Shown here piece after piece: positions 1,327 through 5,726 of a stretch of 8,253 bases of DNA. Every line of letters begins with the position of its first letter. The stretch's first letter is position 1. This stretch comes from Myxococcales bacterium. Lineage in GTDB: Bacteria > Myxococcota > Myxococcia > Myxococcales > Myxococcaceae. The stretch spans positions 1 through 8,253 of the forward strand of contig PMBV01000198.1 of assembly GCA_003153055.1 (NCBI GenBank), read 5' to 3'. A model generated the notes under the pieces. It was not told the DNA's origin and ran no database searches. It saw only the letters and a list, made by a program, of their open reading frames with translations. Both the position numbers and the translations under genes were made by a program.

Positions 1327-2022
1327 TCAACTTCCACGACGGTTGAGGACAGGCACTGCGTCGCAGAGCGGGCACGACCCCGGCGGGTGCGTCACCCGTC
1401 CCCGGTGGAGGTCGAGGACTGCGCGGCTCACCTCGGCGAGCTCTCGGCGCACCTCCCGTCGTGCGCCCTTCACCCGAGCGACCTTCATCGAGTCATAGGC
1501 AGTCGTCTGGTGTCGCATCCACGCGATGACGGCGGCCTCGGCACGCCGCTCGATCGGAATGCGCTCGGTCCGCGCCACGGTCCCGCTGCCCACGGGGGTG
1601 GCGTGCGCGGTGACCCGCTGAGCCATCTGCTGCTCCAGCGAGGCGAAGGCCGAGGTGAAGCGGAGGAAGCGACGAACCTCGCCCTCGAAGTCCTCGACGT
1701 ACTGCACCTGCTCGGCCTGGCGCTTCGCCCGGGCGCTCTCGAGCTTCTTGGTGTACCGCGGCGTGGCTCGCTCGGCCTCGAGCTGAGCCTTGGCCGCCGT
1801 GATGTTCGCGGACGGAGCCCACACGCCCTTGGAGAAGACCTTGCGGCCCACCTTCTCCACCACGGCCCAGCTCGGGCCAGCGGCTTTCACCCGCCGTGTG
1901 AGGCCCGCGTCGCCGGGGGCCAGGCAGCTCCAGTCAGCCGGTACGGTCAGCACCCGGCCATCGGGCGCGCGAACGTGCCGGGGATCCTTCGTCGGCGCAC
2001 ATATGAGGGACTGCGTCATCAT
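1327..2022 (-). CDS. DUF2293 domain-containing protein
   Basis: The product is about 231 residues and soluble, with no signal peptide. The N-terminal part contains RAPDGRVLTVPADW and a stretch rich in small and basic residues ending GRKVFSKGVWAP. A charged, probably helical or coiled-coil central part follows, with many Glu, Arg, Lys and Gln. Residues about 159-207 hold the DUF2293-like segment: AVIAWMRHQTTAYD, then RVKGARREVRRELAE. The extreme C-terminus has a CPLC pair with few other cysteines, possibly half of a metal site. DUF2293 has no established function that I know of; the Arg-rich helices could suit nucleic-acid contact, but that is speculation. It is convergent with the Imm11 gene (16 bases between stops) and lies 45 bases downstream of the lipoprotein gene, so it may be read from the same transcript. 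The start is uncertain: ATG at 2022 or 2019, or GTG at 2040; none has a clear Shine-Dalgarno. Confidence 0.7.
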   Translation of the reverse strand: MMTQSLICAPTKDPRHVRAPDGRVLTVPADWSCLAPGDAGLTRRVKAAGPSWAVVEKVGRKVFSKGVWAPSANITAAKAQLEAERATPRYTKKLESARAKRQAEQVQYVEDFEGEVRRFLRFTSAFASLEQQMAQRVTAHATPVGSGTVARTERIPIERRAEAAVIAWMRHQTTAYDSMKVARVKGARREVRRELAEVSRAVLDLHRGRVTHPPGSCPLCDAVPVLNRRGS

Positions 2023-2067
2023 GCGGCCGGGAAGGACCACAGCCGGCGCCCAGTTTCAACTCGAGAC

Positions 2068-2475
2068 TCAATCCCAGCAAGCCTCGCTCACGGCCAACAC
2101 CCCACCGTCGAAAGCGAAGACGCTGCAGGCCAGGCTTCCTCCGAAGGAGCCACAATCTCCGTTGTAAGGAGCACCCAGGCGCAGGAGGTCGAGCCCCTGG
2201 TACGCCTCACAGTTGATGGGACACCCGCACTCCCCTACCCCCGCGTCGTGCTCCCGACCGACAAAGCACCGATCACAGCAGAGGAGCTCCTCCCCTGGTC
2301 CCTTCCAGGTGAGCGCGATGAAGGTCGGACTCCCACGCGGCATGGCCGGCAACGACGCAACAGGCGCCCCCAAGGCGATCGAGCGACACATGCTCCCCGA
2401 ATCAAGCCACCCACACGAGGCTCCGAGCCCCACCAGCAGTCCTCCGGCCAGTCCAGCCAAGACCTTGTGCCTCAT
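2068..2475 (-). CDS. Cysteine-rich exported protein, probable lipoprotein
   Basis: This 135-residue protein belongs to no family I recognise. Residues 1-20 form a signal sequence: basic MRHK, then a hydrophobic LAGLAGGLLVGLGAS stretch ending at Cys21, which reads as a lipobox with non-ideal positions before the Cys. The mature part has ten further cysteines (30, 66, 67, 70, 83, 85, 89, 108, 117, 133), including CCDRC at 66-70 and CGCPINC at 83-89, so it is probably disulphide-bonded or metal-binding in the periplasm or outer membrane. The ATG at 2475 is chosen over the upstream ATG at 2532 because AGGAGG lies ten bases before it and the signal peptide begins there. It sits 84 bases downstream of the six-cysteine-repeat gene on the same strand and may be a distal member of the bufferin operon. 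Function unknown. Confidence 0.65.
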   Translation of the reverse strand: MRHKVLAGLAGGLLVGLGASCGWLDSGSMCRSIALGAPVASLPAMPRGSPTFIALTWKGPGEELLCCDRCFVGREHDAGVGECGCPINCEAYQGLDLLRLGAPYNGDCGSFGGSLACSVFAFDGGVLAVSEACWD

Positions 2476-2485
2476 CTTTGAACGC

Positions 2486-2491
2486 CCTCCT
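2486..2491 (-). promoter_or_regulatory. Shine-Dalgarno AGGAGG that fixes the lipoprotein start
   Basis: AGGAGG on the minus strand, with ten bases to the ATG at 2475-2473. It decides against the upstream in-frame ATG at 2532, which would place 19 polar, Cys-containing residues before the signal peptide. Confidence 0.7.
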
Positions 2492-2559
2492 GAGGCCGGG
2501 CAGAAGCAGGTTGCGTGCCTACGCCAACCCATGAAAATGAGGCCCCGATGACACCGCCG

Positions 2560-3171
2560 TCATGGCAGCCGCGTCGCGGGTGGAGCGTGCGACACGGGCG
2601 GCACGGGGGGCTCGAAGCAATACAACCGCCCATCTTGCGACGAGCAGGTGCCGCGCGGGCTCTGGGCGCACTGCGCCTCGCTGCGCACTTGTTTGCAATT
2701 CCACCCGCAGGCGTAGGCGGTCTCGGTCGAGATGCAGCTGGCTCCCTTCAGCTCATCGGTGAAGTGGTGAATGATGGCCGGGGGCGGGTCCCAGCAGACG
2801 ACCTCGTCATAGCGCGTGGTGCACACGCCCCACGGTGTCTGGGCACACGCCAGCTTGGTCTCCGAGGTCGCGCAGGAGTAGCCGCAGGCGATCTCACCGC
2901 GCTTCGCCTTGCACCGCGGTGTATGGGAGCTGTCGTGGAGCCGCACCTCCTCCGGTGGATCCCAACAGACCAGCTGCCCCTCGAGGCGTTGACAGATCCC
3001 CTCAGGGGTCTGGGCGCACCGAACCTCGCCCAGCTCCGCGCGACAATGGTAGCCACAGGCAACGGCTCCCCCCGAGGTGTGGCACGAGGGAGACTGGCTA
3101 TTCTGCGTCAAGAGAATCGTGATGAGCGTCGCAAGCATTGGGGCCCATGACGAGACTCCCCAGCGGCGCAT
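2560..3171 (-). CDS. Exported protein with three six-cysteine repeats
   Basis: This 203-residue protein has an N-terminal export signal (MRRWGV, then a hydrophobic core at residues 12-21, MLATLITILL). Three repeats of 40 residues follow at 30-69, 87-126 and 146-185. All share the exact spacing C-x8-C-x3-C-x8-C-x7-C-x8-C, with conserved ACGY/ACGW before the third Cys, CAQTP or CAQSP at the fourth, and CWDPP or CFEPP at the sixth. A Pro-rich tail (PPVPPVSHAPP) ends the protein. All 18 cysteines belong to repeats, which suggests disulphide-stabilised modules or metal-binding sites outside the cytoplasm. I do not recognise a named family. It begins 27 bases after the bufC stop on the same strand, so it is very likely in the bufferin operon, where many such operons instead carry a DoxX-like gene. 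The start at 3171 keeps the basic n-region; ATG 3138 is an alternative that would leave an uncharged signal. No strong Shine-Dalgarno precedes either. Confidence 0.75.
   Translation of the reverse strand: MRRWGVSSWAPMLATLITILLTQNSQSPSCHTSGGAVACGYHCRAELGEVRCAQTPEGICQRLEGQLVCWDPPEEVRLHDSSHTPRCKAKRGEIACGYSCATSETKLACAQTPWGVCTTRYDEVVCWDPPPAIIHHFTDELKGASCISTETAYACGWNCKQVRSEAQCAQSPRGTCSSQDGRLYCFEPPVPPVSHAPPATRLP
2617..3084 (-). repeat. Triplicated 40-codon six-cysteine module within the exported protein
   Basis: Three coding repeats lie at 3084-2965, 2913-2794 and 2736-2617, separated by linkers of 17 and 19 codons. The cysteine spacing is identical in all three. Outside the Cys and the ACG, CAQ and DPP positions the residues differ a lot, so the duplication is old and the spacing is under selection. 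Confidence 0.85.
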
Positions 3172-3198
3172 TCACTGAGCCTGCGCTTTGCCATTCTG

Positions 3199-3972
3199 TC
3201 ACTCTTCGACGTGGAGCTCCGACATCATGCCCTCGGCGATCCAGCTCCCAATGGCCTGGAACGCGGCCGCGACCGGCTCTGGCCCATCGACGAAGGCCTC
3301 GCACACCGACGGCATGTCGTGCCCTGAGAGTACGCCGCTCAGCGCCCTCGCCTCCGCCGCGCTCACCGCCGAGTGGAACACCTGGAACCCCTTGCGCCAG
3401 ACGACGAGGGGCACCACAGCCTCCGGCACCTCGGGCCGCTCCACCGGCCCATCGACCTCGAGGGCGCGCCAGAGCGGACGGAGGTCATACGACAGGCGCA
3501 GCAGCCTCACCGACGGGCTGGGGACCAACGTTGCCCTGGTGAAGGTGTCCGCCGTCAGCTCCCGGAGCTCTTCGGTGGACAGCACCGGCGCGTCGATGGC
3601 CACGAAGCTCTCGGCGCGCGCCCACTCCAGCGCCGCGAGGTCTGCCAACCACGGCTTCCCCTCCATGGGGCGCTCCCGAAGGGTGTCAGCCAGGCCGACG
3701 CCCAGCCGCCCCAGCGAGTAGTGCCTCGAGGGCTGGCGGCGCACGTGCCGGGCCACCAAGACGTCGAAGTCGTCCGCTCCCAACACTCGAGCGACGAGCG
3801 GGTAATCGGACGAGAGGGCGTCACGCATGCGCAACCAATACATCTCGGCGTAGATGCCGACTCGGTCGGCCGCCTCGAGCGCGCCCCCGTGCACCAGGGC
3901 CGCCGTCTCCTCGAGGGCCCCTTCACCGGTGACCGCCCGGAACATCGTCTCCTGCAGCTCGGCGAGCGTCAT
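3199..3972 (-). CDS. bufC: BufC-type DUF2063 partner protein of the DUF692 RiPP enzyme
   Basis: This 257-residue protein matches the DUF2063 (putative DNA-binding domain) family. The N-terminal domain starts LAELQETMFRAVTG, and residues 35-58 carry the hallmark ADRVGIYAEMYWLRMRDAL...DYP. FDVLVARHVRRQPSRHYSL follows at 69-87, and a WLADLAALEWARAESF helix at about 107-122. The C-terminal half is a less conserved domain usual for the family. In bufferin and related RiPP operons this protein binds the precursor and presents it to the DUF692 enzyme in the cytoplasm, despite its 'DNA-binding' label. The ATG at 3972 overlaps the bufB stop as ATGA, implying translational coupling. A longer in-frame reading back to 4074 is rejected because its extra residues are low-complexity and lie wholly inside bufB. 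Confidence 0.85.
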   Translation of the reverse strand: MTLAELQETMFRAVTGEGALEETAALVHGGALEAADRVGIYAEMYWLRMRDALSSDYPLVARVLGADDFDVLVARHVRRQPSRHYSLGRLGVGLADTLRERPMEGKPWLADLAALEWARAESFVAIDAPVLSTEELRELTADTFTRATLVPSPSVRLLRLSYDLRPLWRALEVDGPVERPEVPEAVVPLVVWRKGFQVFHSAVSAAEARALSGVLSGHDMPSVCEAFVDGPEPVAAAFQAIGSWIAEGMMSELHVEE

Positions 3973-4814
3973 TGGGCGAATGCTTTCTGGCGGCCCAGCA
4001 CTTCGTCGGCCGTCTGGCGCGCCAGTCGGCTCTCGGCAAGCAGCACCTCGAGCTCGGGCACCTGGTCGTCCCACTCGACCAGCGAAGGGACGTCTCCGAA
4101 GCGCCGCACCGCGTGCCGGTAGAGCTCCCAGACCGCGTCGACCACGTGACCATCATGGGTGTCGATGACGATGGTGCCTCGGTCCTGGTGCCCGGCGAGG
4201 TGGAACTGGCCGACCCGCTCCACCGGCACGGCATCGATGTACGCCACTGGATCGAACCCGTGGTTCCGAGCGCTGACATAGACATTGTTGACATCGAGGA
4301 GGATGCCGCAGTCGGCCCGCTCGGCCACAGCGGCGAGGAACTCGGCTTCGGGAATGACCGACTCCTTGAAGGCCAGGTACGTCGAGGGGTTCTCGATGAG
4401 AATCTGCCGGTCGAGGCGCCCCTGGACTCGCTTGACGCGCTCCACCACGTGCTCCAGCGTCACTCGGGTGTACGGCATGGGCAAGAGGTCGTGCGCGTAG
4501 CGGTCGTGCGCTCGGCCCCAGCAGAGATGGTCCGACACCATCACCGGCTCGATGCGGTGAATGAGCGCAGCGAGGTCTGCCAGGTAGGCCTCGGAGAGCG
4601 GCTCGATGCTGCCCACCGCCAGCGAGACCCCATGCAGCACCACGGGCCTTTCCCTCCTGGCCTTCTCCAGCACAGCCAGCGGTCGACCGCCGAGACCCAT
4701 GAAGTTCTCGCTGATGGCCTCGACCCAGGCGATGTCGGGCGACCCGTCGAGGAACTGCGAGTAATGCCTGGGTCTCAAACCAACTCCGTGACCGAGCTTC
4801 GGGCGAGCGTACAT
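3969..4814 (-). CDS. bufB: BufB-type DUF692 multinuclear non-heme iron oxidative enzyme (MNIO)
   Basis: This 281-residue TIM-barrel enzyme shows every DUF692 signature in order: GHGVGLRPRHY (8-18), WVEAISENFM (30-39), LHGVSLAVGS (60-69), SDHLCWG (94-100), HDLLPMPYT (108-116), ENPSTYL (141-147), LLDVNNVYVSARNHGFDP (172-189), FHLAGH (204-209), DTHD (218-221) and EWDDQVPEL (247-255). His61, His96, Glu141, Asp174, Asn177, His205, Asp218, His220 and Glu247 are the likely iron-site ligands by comparison with MbnB-type enzymes. MNIOs oxidise cysteines or other residues in ribosomal precursors; in bufferin systems they convert cysteines into thiooxazole-type groups that bind copper. The precursor gene lies 15 bases upstream and the partner gene overlaps downstream, so substrate and enzyme are co-transcribed. 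The ATG at 4814 has a modest AGAGG five bases upstream. Length is normal and no motif is missing. Confidence 0.92.
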   Translation of the reverse strand: MYARPKLGHGVGLRPRHYSQFLDGSPDIAWVEAISENFMGLGGRPLAVLEKARRERPVVLHGVSLAVGSIEPLSEAYLADLAALIHRIEPVMVSDHLCWGRAHDRYAHDLLPMPYTRVTLEHVVERVKRVQGRLDRQILIENPSTYLAFKESVIPEAEFLAAVAERADCGILLDVNNVYVSARNHGFDPVAYIDAVPVERVGQFHLAGHQDRGTIVIDTHDGHVVDAVWELYRHAVRRFGDVPSLVEWDDQVPELEVLLAESRLARQTADEVLGRQKAFAQ

Positions 4815-4829
4815 GGGAGCCTCTGACGA

Positions 4830-5108
4830 CTACTTGTTGAAGGCGATGACCTTGCCGCCCTTCGCCTGGCATTCCTTCTCGGACAGCGAGACCCAGCCCT
4901 TCGCCTTGCACTCGTTCTGTCCAGCACAGTCGTGGGTCGGGCCTCCGCATTCTCCTTTGCCCTTGCACTCGTTGACGCCGGAGCAGCTCACCTTGGCGCT
5001 GGCGTCCTTGGCGCCCTTCTTCGGGGCCTTGTCGCCGGCGAAGGCGCCCGAGGCGAGCAACGAGGCGACGGCCGAGGCAATCACGATTCCCTTGGTGGAC
5101 TTCATCAT
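4830..5108 (-). CDS. bufA: Bufferin-type RiPP precursor (BufA2-like), periplasmic metal-binding peptide
   Basis: This 92-residue precursor has a Sec signal peptide (MMKSTKG, hydrophobic core, likely cleavage after AFA at residue 24), a Lys/Ala-rich linker (25-40) and a compact core with six cysteines at 42, 48, 54, 61, 67 and 80. The core contains a duplicated motif, CSGVNECKGKG (42-52) and CAGQNECKAKG (61-71), then GW and a final C...KGG. This matches, from memory, the BufA2 family of bufferin-type metallophores (C-x-G-x-N-x-C-K-G). Bufferins are modified on cysteines by the DUF692 enzyme, exported, and shield the periplasm from excess copper; copper specificity here is inferred. It is the first gene of the operon, 15 bases before bufB. 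ATG 5108 is chosen because AAGGAG lies eight bases upstream; reading back to 5147 would add 13 polar residues before the signal peptide. A second ATG directly follows. Confidence 0.85.
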   Translation of the reverse strand: MMKSTKGIVIASAVASLLASGAFAGDKAPKKGAKDASAKVSCSGVNECKGKGECGGPTHDCAGQNECKAKGWVSLSEKECQAKGGKVIAFNK

Positions 5109-5116
5109 GTGAGCAA

Positions 5117-5122
5117 CTCCTT
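5117..5122 (-). promoter_or_regulatory. Shine-Dalgarno AAGGAG of the bufferin precursor
   Basis: AAGGAG on the minus strand with eight bases to the ATG at 5108-5106. It is the strongest ribosome-binding site in the operon, fitting high translation of the precursor relative to the enzyme genes, and it settles the start against the longer upstream reading. Confidence 0.75.
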
Positions 5123-5155
5123 GGTGGGTGGACGCGCGGGGCGCCACGAAGGTGG

Positions 5156-5181
5156 TACGGGGACCCCGACGAAAGGGTTAC
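5156..5181 (-). promoter_or_regulatory. Putative ECF-sigma promoter of the bufferin operon (GTAACC-N17-CGTA)
   Basis: On the minus strand GTAACC (5181-5176) is followed after 17 bases by CGTA (5159-5156). GTAACC is a classic -35 element of ECF sigma factors, and CGTA/CGTC/CGAA are usual -10 elements. The -10 lies 47 bases upstream of the bufA ATG, giving a short leader that contains the Shine-Dalgarno. Bufferin operons of Caulobacter are controlled by the ECF factor SigF, whose promoters carry GTAACC (recalled knowledge). No sigma factor gene is in this window. Confidence 0.55.
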
Positions 5182-5256
5182 GGCGTACCGTGTGTAAGGA
5201 GGTGGCCGAGGAATTTCACTGCGCGCCTACAGCCCGCTCTCAGACGGGCCGCCGCG

Positions 5257-5277
5257 ACATGACGCGTCGCATCATGT
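5257..5277. promoter_or_regulatory. 21-bp near-palindrome, putative operator of the acetyltransferase gene
   Basis: ACATGA (5257-5262) and TCATGT (5272-5277) are perfect inverted arms nine bases apart. The inner bases are also symmetric except for one mismatched pair and the centre. The element ends eleven bases before the ATG at 5289, a position where a dimeric repressor would block transcription or initiation. Size and symmetry suit an ArsR-, MarR- or TetR-type dimer, but no regulator gene is present here. It could instead be an RNA hairpin masking the ribosome-binding site. Confidence 0.45.
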
Positions 5278-5288
5278 AGGATGACGGC

Positions 5289-5726
5289 ATGACCATCACC
5301 ATCCGAGCGGCGCGCAGTGAAGACCTCGCGGTCGTGGAAGGGCTCTTGGTGGAGGCGAAGCTCCCCGTCGGCGGCCTGGGTGACCAGTTCCCGTCGAGCT
5401 ACTTCGTGGTGGAGGACGGAAGCGAGCTCATCGGAGCAGCCGGCCTCGAGGCGTACGCTGGCCATGGGCTGCTCCGGTCCGTCGTGGTGCGAGCTGACCG
5501 CCGGGGCAGCGGCGTCGGGCGGGCGGTGATGGAGCGAGTGCTCCAATCGGCCCGAGACCAGGAGCTCCATGGCGTGTACCTGCTGACCCAGACGGCGCCG
5601 GAGTACTTTCGGCGGCTCGGCTTCTTCGGCTACCCCCGCGGCGACGCTCCCGACGCCGTGCAGAAATCTCCCGAGTTCGCCTCGGTCTGTCCCTCGACGG
5701 CGACGTGCATGCGCTGGACGGCCTGA
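5289..5726 (+). CDS. arsN2: ArsN2-like GNAT-family N-acetyltransferase
   Basis: This 145-residue single-domain GNAT protein starts with the usual TITIRAARSEDL strand-helix. Strands around FVVEDGSELIGAAGLE (39-54) follow, and the acetyl-CoA motif A, RSVVVRADRRGSGVGRAVM, spans about 63-81 with the R-x-x-G-x-G/A loop as RRGSGVG. The C-terminal part, VYLLTQTAPEYFRRLGFF and then SPEFASVCPSTATCM, matches what I recall of the ArsN2 group, which often lies in arsenic-resistance operons and ends in an 'EF..lCP.sa..M' motif with conserved cysteines. It would transfer an acetyl group from acetyl-CoA in the cytoplasm; the true substrate of ArsN2 is not firmly known. It is divergent from the copper-related bufferin operon across 180 bases, so the region may be a metal-stress divergon. 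It lies 44 bases upstream of the sugar-phosphate mutase and could be co-transcribed. No other ars gene is in the window. Confidence 0.75.
   Translation: MTITIRAARSEDLAVVEGLLVEAKLPVGGLGDQFPSSYFVVEDGSELIGAAGLEAYAGHGLLRSVVVRADRRGSGVGRAVMERVLQSARDQELHGVYLLTQTAPEYFRRLGFFGYPRGDAPDAVQKSPEFASVCPSTATCMRWTA

Follow-up and report, generated by a model that had tools for sequence, protein, structure and literature searches.

The window analysed here, a stretch of 8,253 nucleotides, carries within positions 2560-5108 four genes on the minus strand: bufA, bufB, bufC and a gene encoding a protein with three six-cysteine modules. bufA (4830..5108) encodes a BufA2/Buf2 bufferin precursor of 92 amino acids, which matches the NCBIfam BufA2 model NF050166 with 76.3 bits (cut-off 60), contains six cysteines and begins with a hydrophobic stretch ending in AFA-G that, by eye, resembles a signal peptide. 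The product of bufB (3969..4814) is an MNIO (DUF692) bufferin maturase, scoring 367.4 bits against the NCBIfam BufB model NF050167 (cut-off 310) and matching Pfam PF05114 with an E-value of 4e-105, while bufC (3199..3972) encodes the DUF2063 partner protein (Pfam PF09836, E 3e-15), which also matches the NCBIfam HvfC model NF050145, below its cut-off. The six-cysteine precursor, the MNIO enzyme, the DUF2063 partner and the gene order A-B-C are those of Buf2 clusters as the published survey describes them in the parts used here (PMC12452194), and bufABC is a standard operon of the Buf2 bufferin type. The initial annotation had already recognised a bufferin-type operon from the sequence, and the curated models bear this out; its coordinates, the 15-base gap between bufA and bufB, the ATGA overlap between bufB and bufC and the cysteine spacings of the fourth gene hold as well. 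By analogy with published bufferins, BufA would be made with a signal peptide, BufB together with BufC would oxidise its cysteines, and the exported product would bind copper. As a side observation, the bufC product of the window is missing among the best 120 of 154 protein-search rows (best listed 81%); the repeat protein is present at 100%.

Upstream of bufA, and starting 73 bases ahead of it, lies a motif typical of ECF sigma factors (GTAACC-N16-CGT, 5157..5181, minus strand), these positions being the first 25 bases of GTAACC-N16-CGTA. In Caulobacter, the sigma-F binding sequence is GTAACC-N16-CGAA, and sigma-F controls a DUF2282-DUF692-DUF2063-DoxX cluster, CC3254-CC3257, according to the portion of that study drawn on here (PMC3511200). 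The window thus shares with this regulon GTAACC-N16-CG.. before the precursor gene but differs from it in having a Buf2 instead of a DUF2282 (Buf1) precursor, no DoxX and, among the eight window proteins scanned with Pfam, no sigma factor. A widened form of the motif was found ahead of bufA in 14 of 20 loci, the window included (13 of 19 related loci), a count to be read with the fact that the motif had been widened on these same 20 stretches; dinucleotide shuffles gave a mean of 0.19 and a highest value of 3. It is absent before bufA in the nearest relative (L095) and in L103, L109, L112, L113 and L114. Among held-out upstream stretches, from which L089 was left out for having too little upstream sequence, 3 of 10 contain it (shuffles: mean 0.08, highest 1). 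A search of 2000-5300 for sigma-70-type consensus sites gave none. On this sequence evidence, an ECF (sigma-F-like) promoter probably drives bufABC. This suggests that Buf2 clusters come under sigma-F-like control, which the published survey, in the parts consulted, ties to Buf1: sigma and NrsF genes are reported there with Buf1 only and not with Buf2 (PMC12452194), whereas the window has the ECF-type motif and 3 of 18 related loci have a sigma gene.

Regarding the fourth gene, the open reading frame spans 2560-3171 and encodes 203 amino acids, with a short hydrophobic stretch at the N-terminus followed by the three modules. The first module cysteine is preceded by 29 residues when counted from the first ATG and by 18 when counted from Met12. 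In the 35 closest homologues (P0002-P0036), 15-25 residues precede this cysteine (15-21 in 33 of the 35), and the true start is therefore probably at 3138 (Met12), so that the gene probably covers 2560..3138 and begins 60 bases behind bufC, not 27. The initial annotation was right about three six-cysteine modules of identical spacing, but its 27-base gap probably has to be revised. The 18 cysteines fall into module 1 (C30-C69, 2965..3084), module 2 (C87-C126, 2794..2913) and module 3 (C146-C185, 2617..2736), numbered on the 203-residue frame and all on the minus strand, each being exactly C-x8-C-x3-C-x8-C-x7-C-x8-C, with 17 and 19 residues separating the modules.

The AlphaFold2 model of the repeat protein is confident (mean pLDDT 93.1, pTM 0.81) and shows two paired strands at each of the nine C-x8-C units, so that each module comprises three C-x8-C hairpins. 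In module 1, strands 29-33/36-46, 36-46/49-53 and 59-63/66-70 are paired, in a register that sets C30 by C39, C43 by C52 and C60 by C69; modules 2 and 3 are alike. Cysteine pairing was read from this strand register and from the joint loss of cysteines across the family, not from atomic coordinates. Only 2 of 619 modules lack some cysteine, and each lacks a hairpin pair, C1 and C2 in P0257 and C3 and C4 in P0008; single-cysteine loss occurs in 0 of 619 modules, although two joint losses are few. In nine modules with an apparent gap at C1, inspection by hand located a cysteine further upstream in every case, that is, a longer first hairpin. The model together with these losses suggests that every C-x8-C hairpin holds one disulphide, and speaks against an enzyme substrate or a metal site. 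Each module would then consist of three beta-hairpins stapled by a disulphide between the C-x8-C cysteines, and the protein would therefore be a rigid, disulphide-braced beta repeat. Searches of PDB and BFVD with the repeat protein returned no match, which is no proof of a new fold.

The 18 cysteines next to a copper-linked operon might also speak for a copper-binding relay or store working alongside the bufferin. CxC or CxxC spacings are the mark of metallothionein-like thiolate clusters, but neither occurs in the repeat reading frame, where the smallest spacing is x3, and the modules are poor in histidine (1.8%) and methionine (0.5%). Moreover, the modelled strand register gives each module cysteine a partner on the neighbouring strand, and the family is unlinked to bufferins elsewhere, as detailed below. 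We consider such a role very unlikely.

The repeat protein is one of many. A protein search retrieved 86 proteins, the window's own included, and hence 85 homologues, and a profile search retrieved 462 proteins; among the matches listed (the best 120 of 462), organism names are myxobacterial or 'Deltaproteobacteria'. The nearest homologues, P0002 (82%) and P0003 (69%), lie on metagenome contigs, and the closest one in a whole genome is that of G001, with 57-60% identity. In all, 172 family proteins, among them that of the window with its three modules, contain 576 strict modules, and the module is therefore not a chance pattern; the hairpin consensus over 588 modules is C-x-A-x-x-G-x-V-x-C. 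The family was found (E up to 1e-5) in 82 of 195 genomes, all from the phylum to which G001 belongs; G001 had supplied the single locus (L001) obtained by a contig scan with one sequence. The window protein has the same module spacing and, as in its closest homologues, a short N-terminus, and it differs as the only member located behind bufC among those with readable surroundings. In 21 neighbourhoods examined, 19 of whose repeat genes were called by a simple gene finder, the genes next to the repeat gene recur inside small groups of related genomes and differ between groups. The reading frame has no Pfam or NCBIfam match at E up to 0.1, and literature searches found no paper on the six-cysteine repeat family. 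Most likely the gene comes from an independent Myxococcota family that is uncharacterised and whose proteins are probably exported. This cysteine-repeat family is broad and unnamed, has a confident structural model and lacks a match in the PDB searches described above. Its size range is illustrated by P0207, which has 455 residues and 50 cysteines against the usual 18 to 26.

The initial annotation had proposed that the fourth gene provides a second substrate, a metal-relay partner or a scaffold for the bufferin, and had named homologues lying mostly away from DUF692 genes as the outcome that would speak against this. Such is the distribution observed in the genomes searched, and none of these three roles is supported. 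BufB-like matches (E up to 1e-10) are present in 124 of the 195 genomes, and BufA2 in 41, of which 36 are over the cut-off. Among the matches listed, 0 of 133 repeat places (second rows of one repeat locus being left out) lie within 60 kb of a BufB-like match on their own contig; 40 of the 133 are on the same contig as such a match, at distances of 62,928 bases or more. Six of the 82 genomes with repeats (G001, G060, G061, G149, G151 and G158) have no BufB-like match. Using tblastn on longer flanks, the repeat gene was found in 0 of 19 bufferin loci and, conversely, bufA, bufB or bufC in 0 of 21 repeat loci (L096 and L115-L134, L001 being the same place as L115), and a pattern scan of 60 bufB and bufA loci, many overlapping and with about 1.5 kb per side where the contig allows, returned no six-cysteine module. 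BufA2 and repeats occur together in 10 of 195 genomes versus 17.2 expected, on different contigs in 10 of 10; the one-sided Fisher p for fewer is 0.007, uncorrected for kinship and not taken as proof of avoidance. In G110, which has the nearest BufB, the repeat family is represented by a single match, to a shorter protein encoded on a different contig. A same-contig check of 84 and 85 new repeat rows against 119 BufC rows (best 120 of 154) gave three cases in which the longest contigs are of equal length: two (of 1062 and 1058 bases) leave no room for a repeat gene plus bufC, and P0060 comes from jgi while P0179 comes from ncbi and lgn (both 17175), so that these are probably different records. 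As a control for this check, P0101 matches G110:C2 in size and P0177 matches G147:C99. The linkage comparison rests on uneven genome sampling with many short contigs, and the metagenome contigs of P0002 and P0003 fall outside it.

These data speak against the proposal that BufB and BufC modify the repeat protein as a second substrate. The protein is probably exported, rich in cysteines and encoded next to an MNIO gene, and tandem as well as very long precursors are on record in the portion of the survey used here (PMC12452194). An MNIO substrate would be expected to belong to a family linked to MNIO genes, to match a known precursor model and to be encoded ahead of the MNIO gene, yet this family is unlinked (0 of 133 places, among the matches listed), the protein matches no precursor model (0 Pfam and 0 NCBIfam families) and its gene follows bufC, in clusters whose bufABC order is given as strictly conserved in the same portion of the survey (PMC12452194). 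Furthermore, the cysteines are conserved in G001, which has no BufB-like match, and in unlinked copies, and cysteines paired within hairpins suit disulphides. Modification by BufB thus appears highly improbable.

The comparison of related operons places the fourth gene in a position of variable content. Among 19 related bufferin loci, 18 are readable past bufC, L112 offering 168 bases only, and none of the 18 has repeats following bufC beside its DUF692/DUF2063 pair, an arrangement that the initial annotation had suggested looking for in Myxococcota. Instead, Pfam identifies an ECF sigma gene in 3 of 18 (L095, L104 and L106) and DoxX in 2 of 18 (L107 and L109); L098 has a phosphodiesterase-type gene, as by eye do L102 and L105, L103 has a porin-like gene, and in L099-L101 a convergent SecF-like gene comes, by eye, after bufC. 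The remaining loci have other genes or no recognisable close same-strand gene. The nearest relative, G110 (BufB 76%, BufC 57%; locus L095), is among those with an ECF sigma gene. The slot behind bufC in Myxococcota Buf2 clusters is variable, and a gene found there should therefore not be taken as a bufferin partner without comparison across relatives. DoxX is counted in the Buf2 cluster core, though not in every cluster, in the parts of the survey drawn upon (PMC12452194), and the window departs from such clusters in having the repeat gene behind bufC and no DoxX found. Its absence had been singled out as unexpected; indeed, no DoxX match is present among the eight window proteins scanned with Pfam, but this is not peculiar given that DoxX stands behind bufC in just 2 of 18 related loci. 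Of the ECF sigma genes directly behind bufC in BufA2-type clusters (L095:8388-9014, L104:6065-6574 and L106:6236-6775), those of L104 and L106 are accompanied by an NrsF-like protein, below the Pfam cut-off.

We therefore favour, with a probability of roughly two in three, a normal bufferin operon followed by a passenger gene that is specific to this lineage and stems from an uncharacterised family of Myxococcota; the cysteines of its product would be engaged in hairpin disulphides. The repeat protein would stand outside the bufferin pathway and would not be an MNIO substrate; it probably has a structural or binding role in the envelope, export and function both being predicted, and its gene, lineage-specific in its place behind bufC, is probably co-transcribed with the operon. 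The short packing (60 or 27 bases) and the lack of a consensus promoter in between fit co-transcription, and hence a functional link is possible. This opens the way to another explanation, according to which the protein was recruited in this lineage and, co-transcribed under ECF control, supports the envelope during copper or redox stress while not being modified by BufB. The same strand, the spacing behind bufC with no sigma-70 consensus site between, the ECF-type motif upstream of bufA and the related functions that can occupy the slot (ECF sigma in 3 of 18 loci, DoxX in 2 of 18) all agree with it. Against it, no second example of repeat-bufC linkage appeared in the searched genomes, among the matches listed, and repeat genes do not carry the ECF motif of their own: none of 34 sequences upstream of repeat genes (33 genes, one taken twice, the window's included) contains the widened motif, and the 200 bases ahead of the repeat frame in the window have no ECF-type motif. 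We regard recruitment as unlikely, but it keeps its place because the comparison does not extend to how genes are arranged in the closest relatives. In a bolder version, slightly more doubtful still, the ECF (sigma-F-like) bufferin promoter would in this lineage have captured a gene of an unnamed Myxococcota family, whose C-x8-C hairpins, stapled by disulphides and arranged as a ladder, may amount to a new fold; the protein would now take part in the copper response from within the envelope.

Next downstream of the repeat gene, a cysteine-containing gene whose product looks by eye like a lipoprotein (2068..2475, minus strand) is matched in only two of the 195 phylum genomes (G110 and G111), and in G110 this homologue and bufABC are on different contigs; the gene is at most a putative member of the operon. 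Further along, an Imm11-type immunity protein (Pfam E 3e-15) is encoded at 744-1310 on the plus strand, and the region ahead of it (1-740) holds only short overlapping frames, degenerate-looking by eye. Finally, on the other side of the operon and divergent from bufA, a plus-strand gene at 5289-5726 encodes a GNAT protein that matches the NCBIfam model of the arsenic resistance acetyltransferase ArsN2 with 138.3 bits (cut-off 125).
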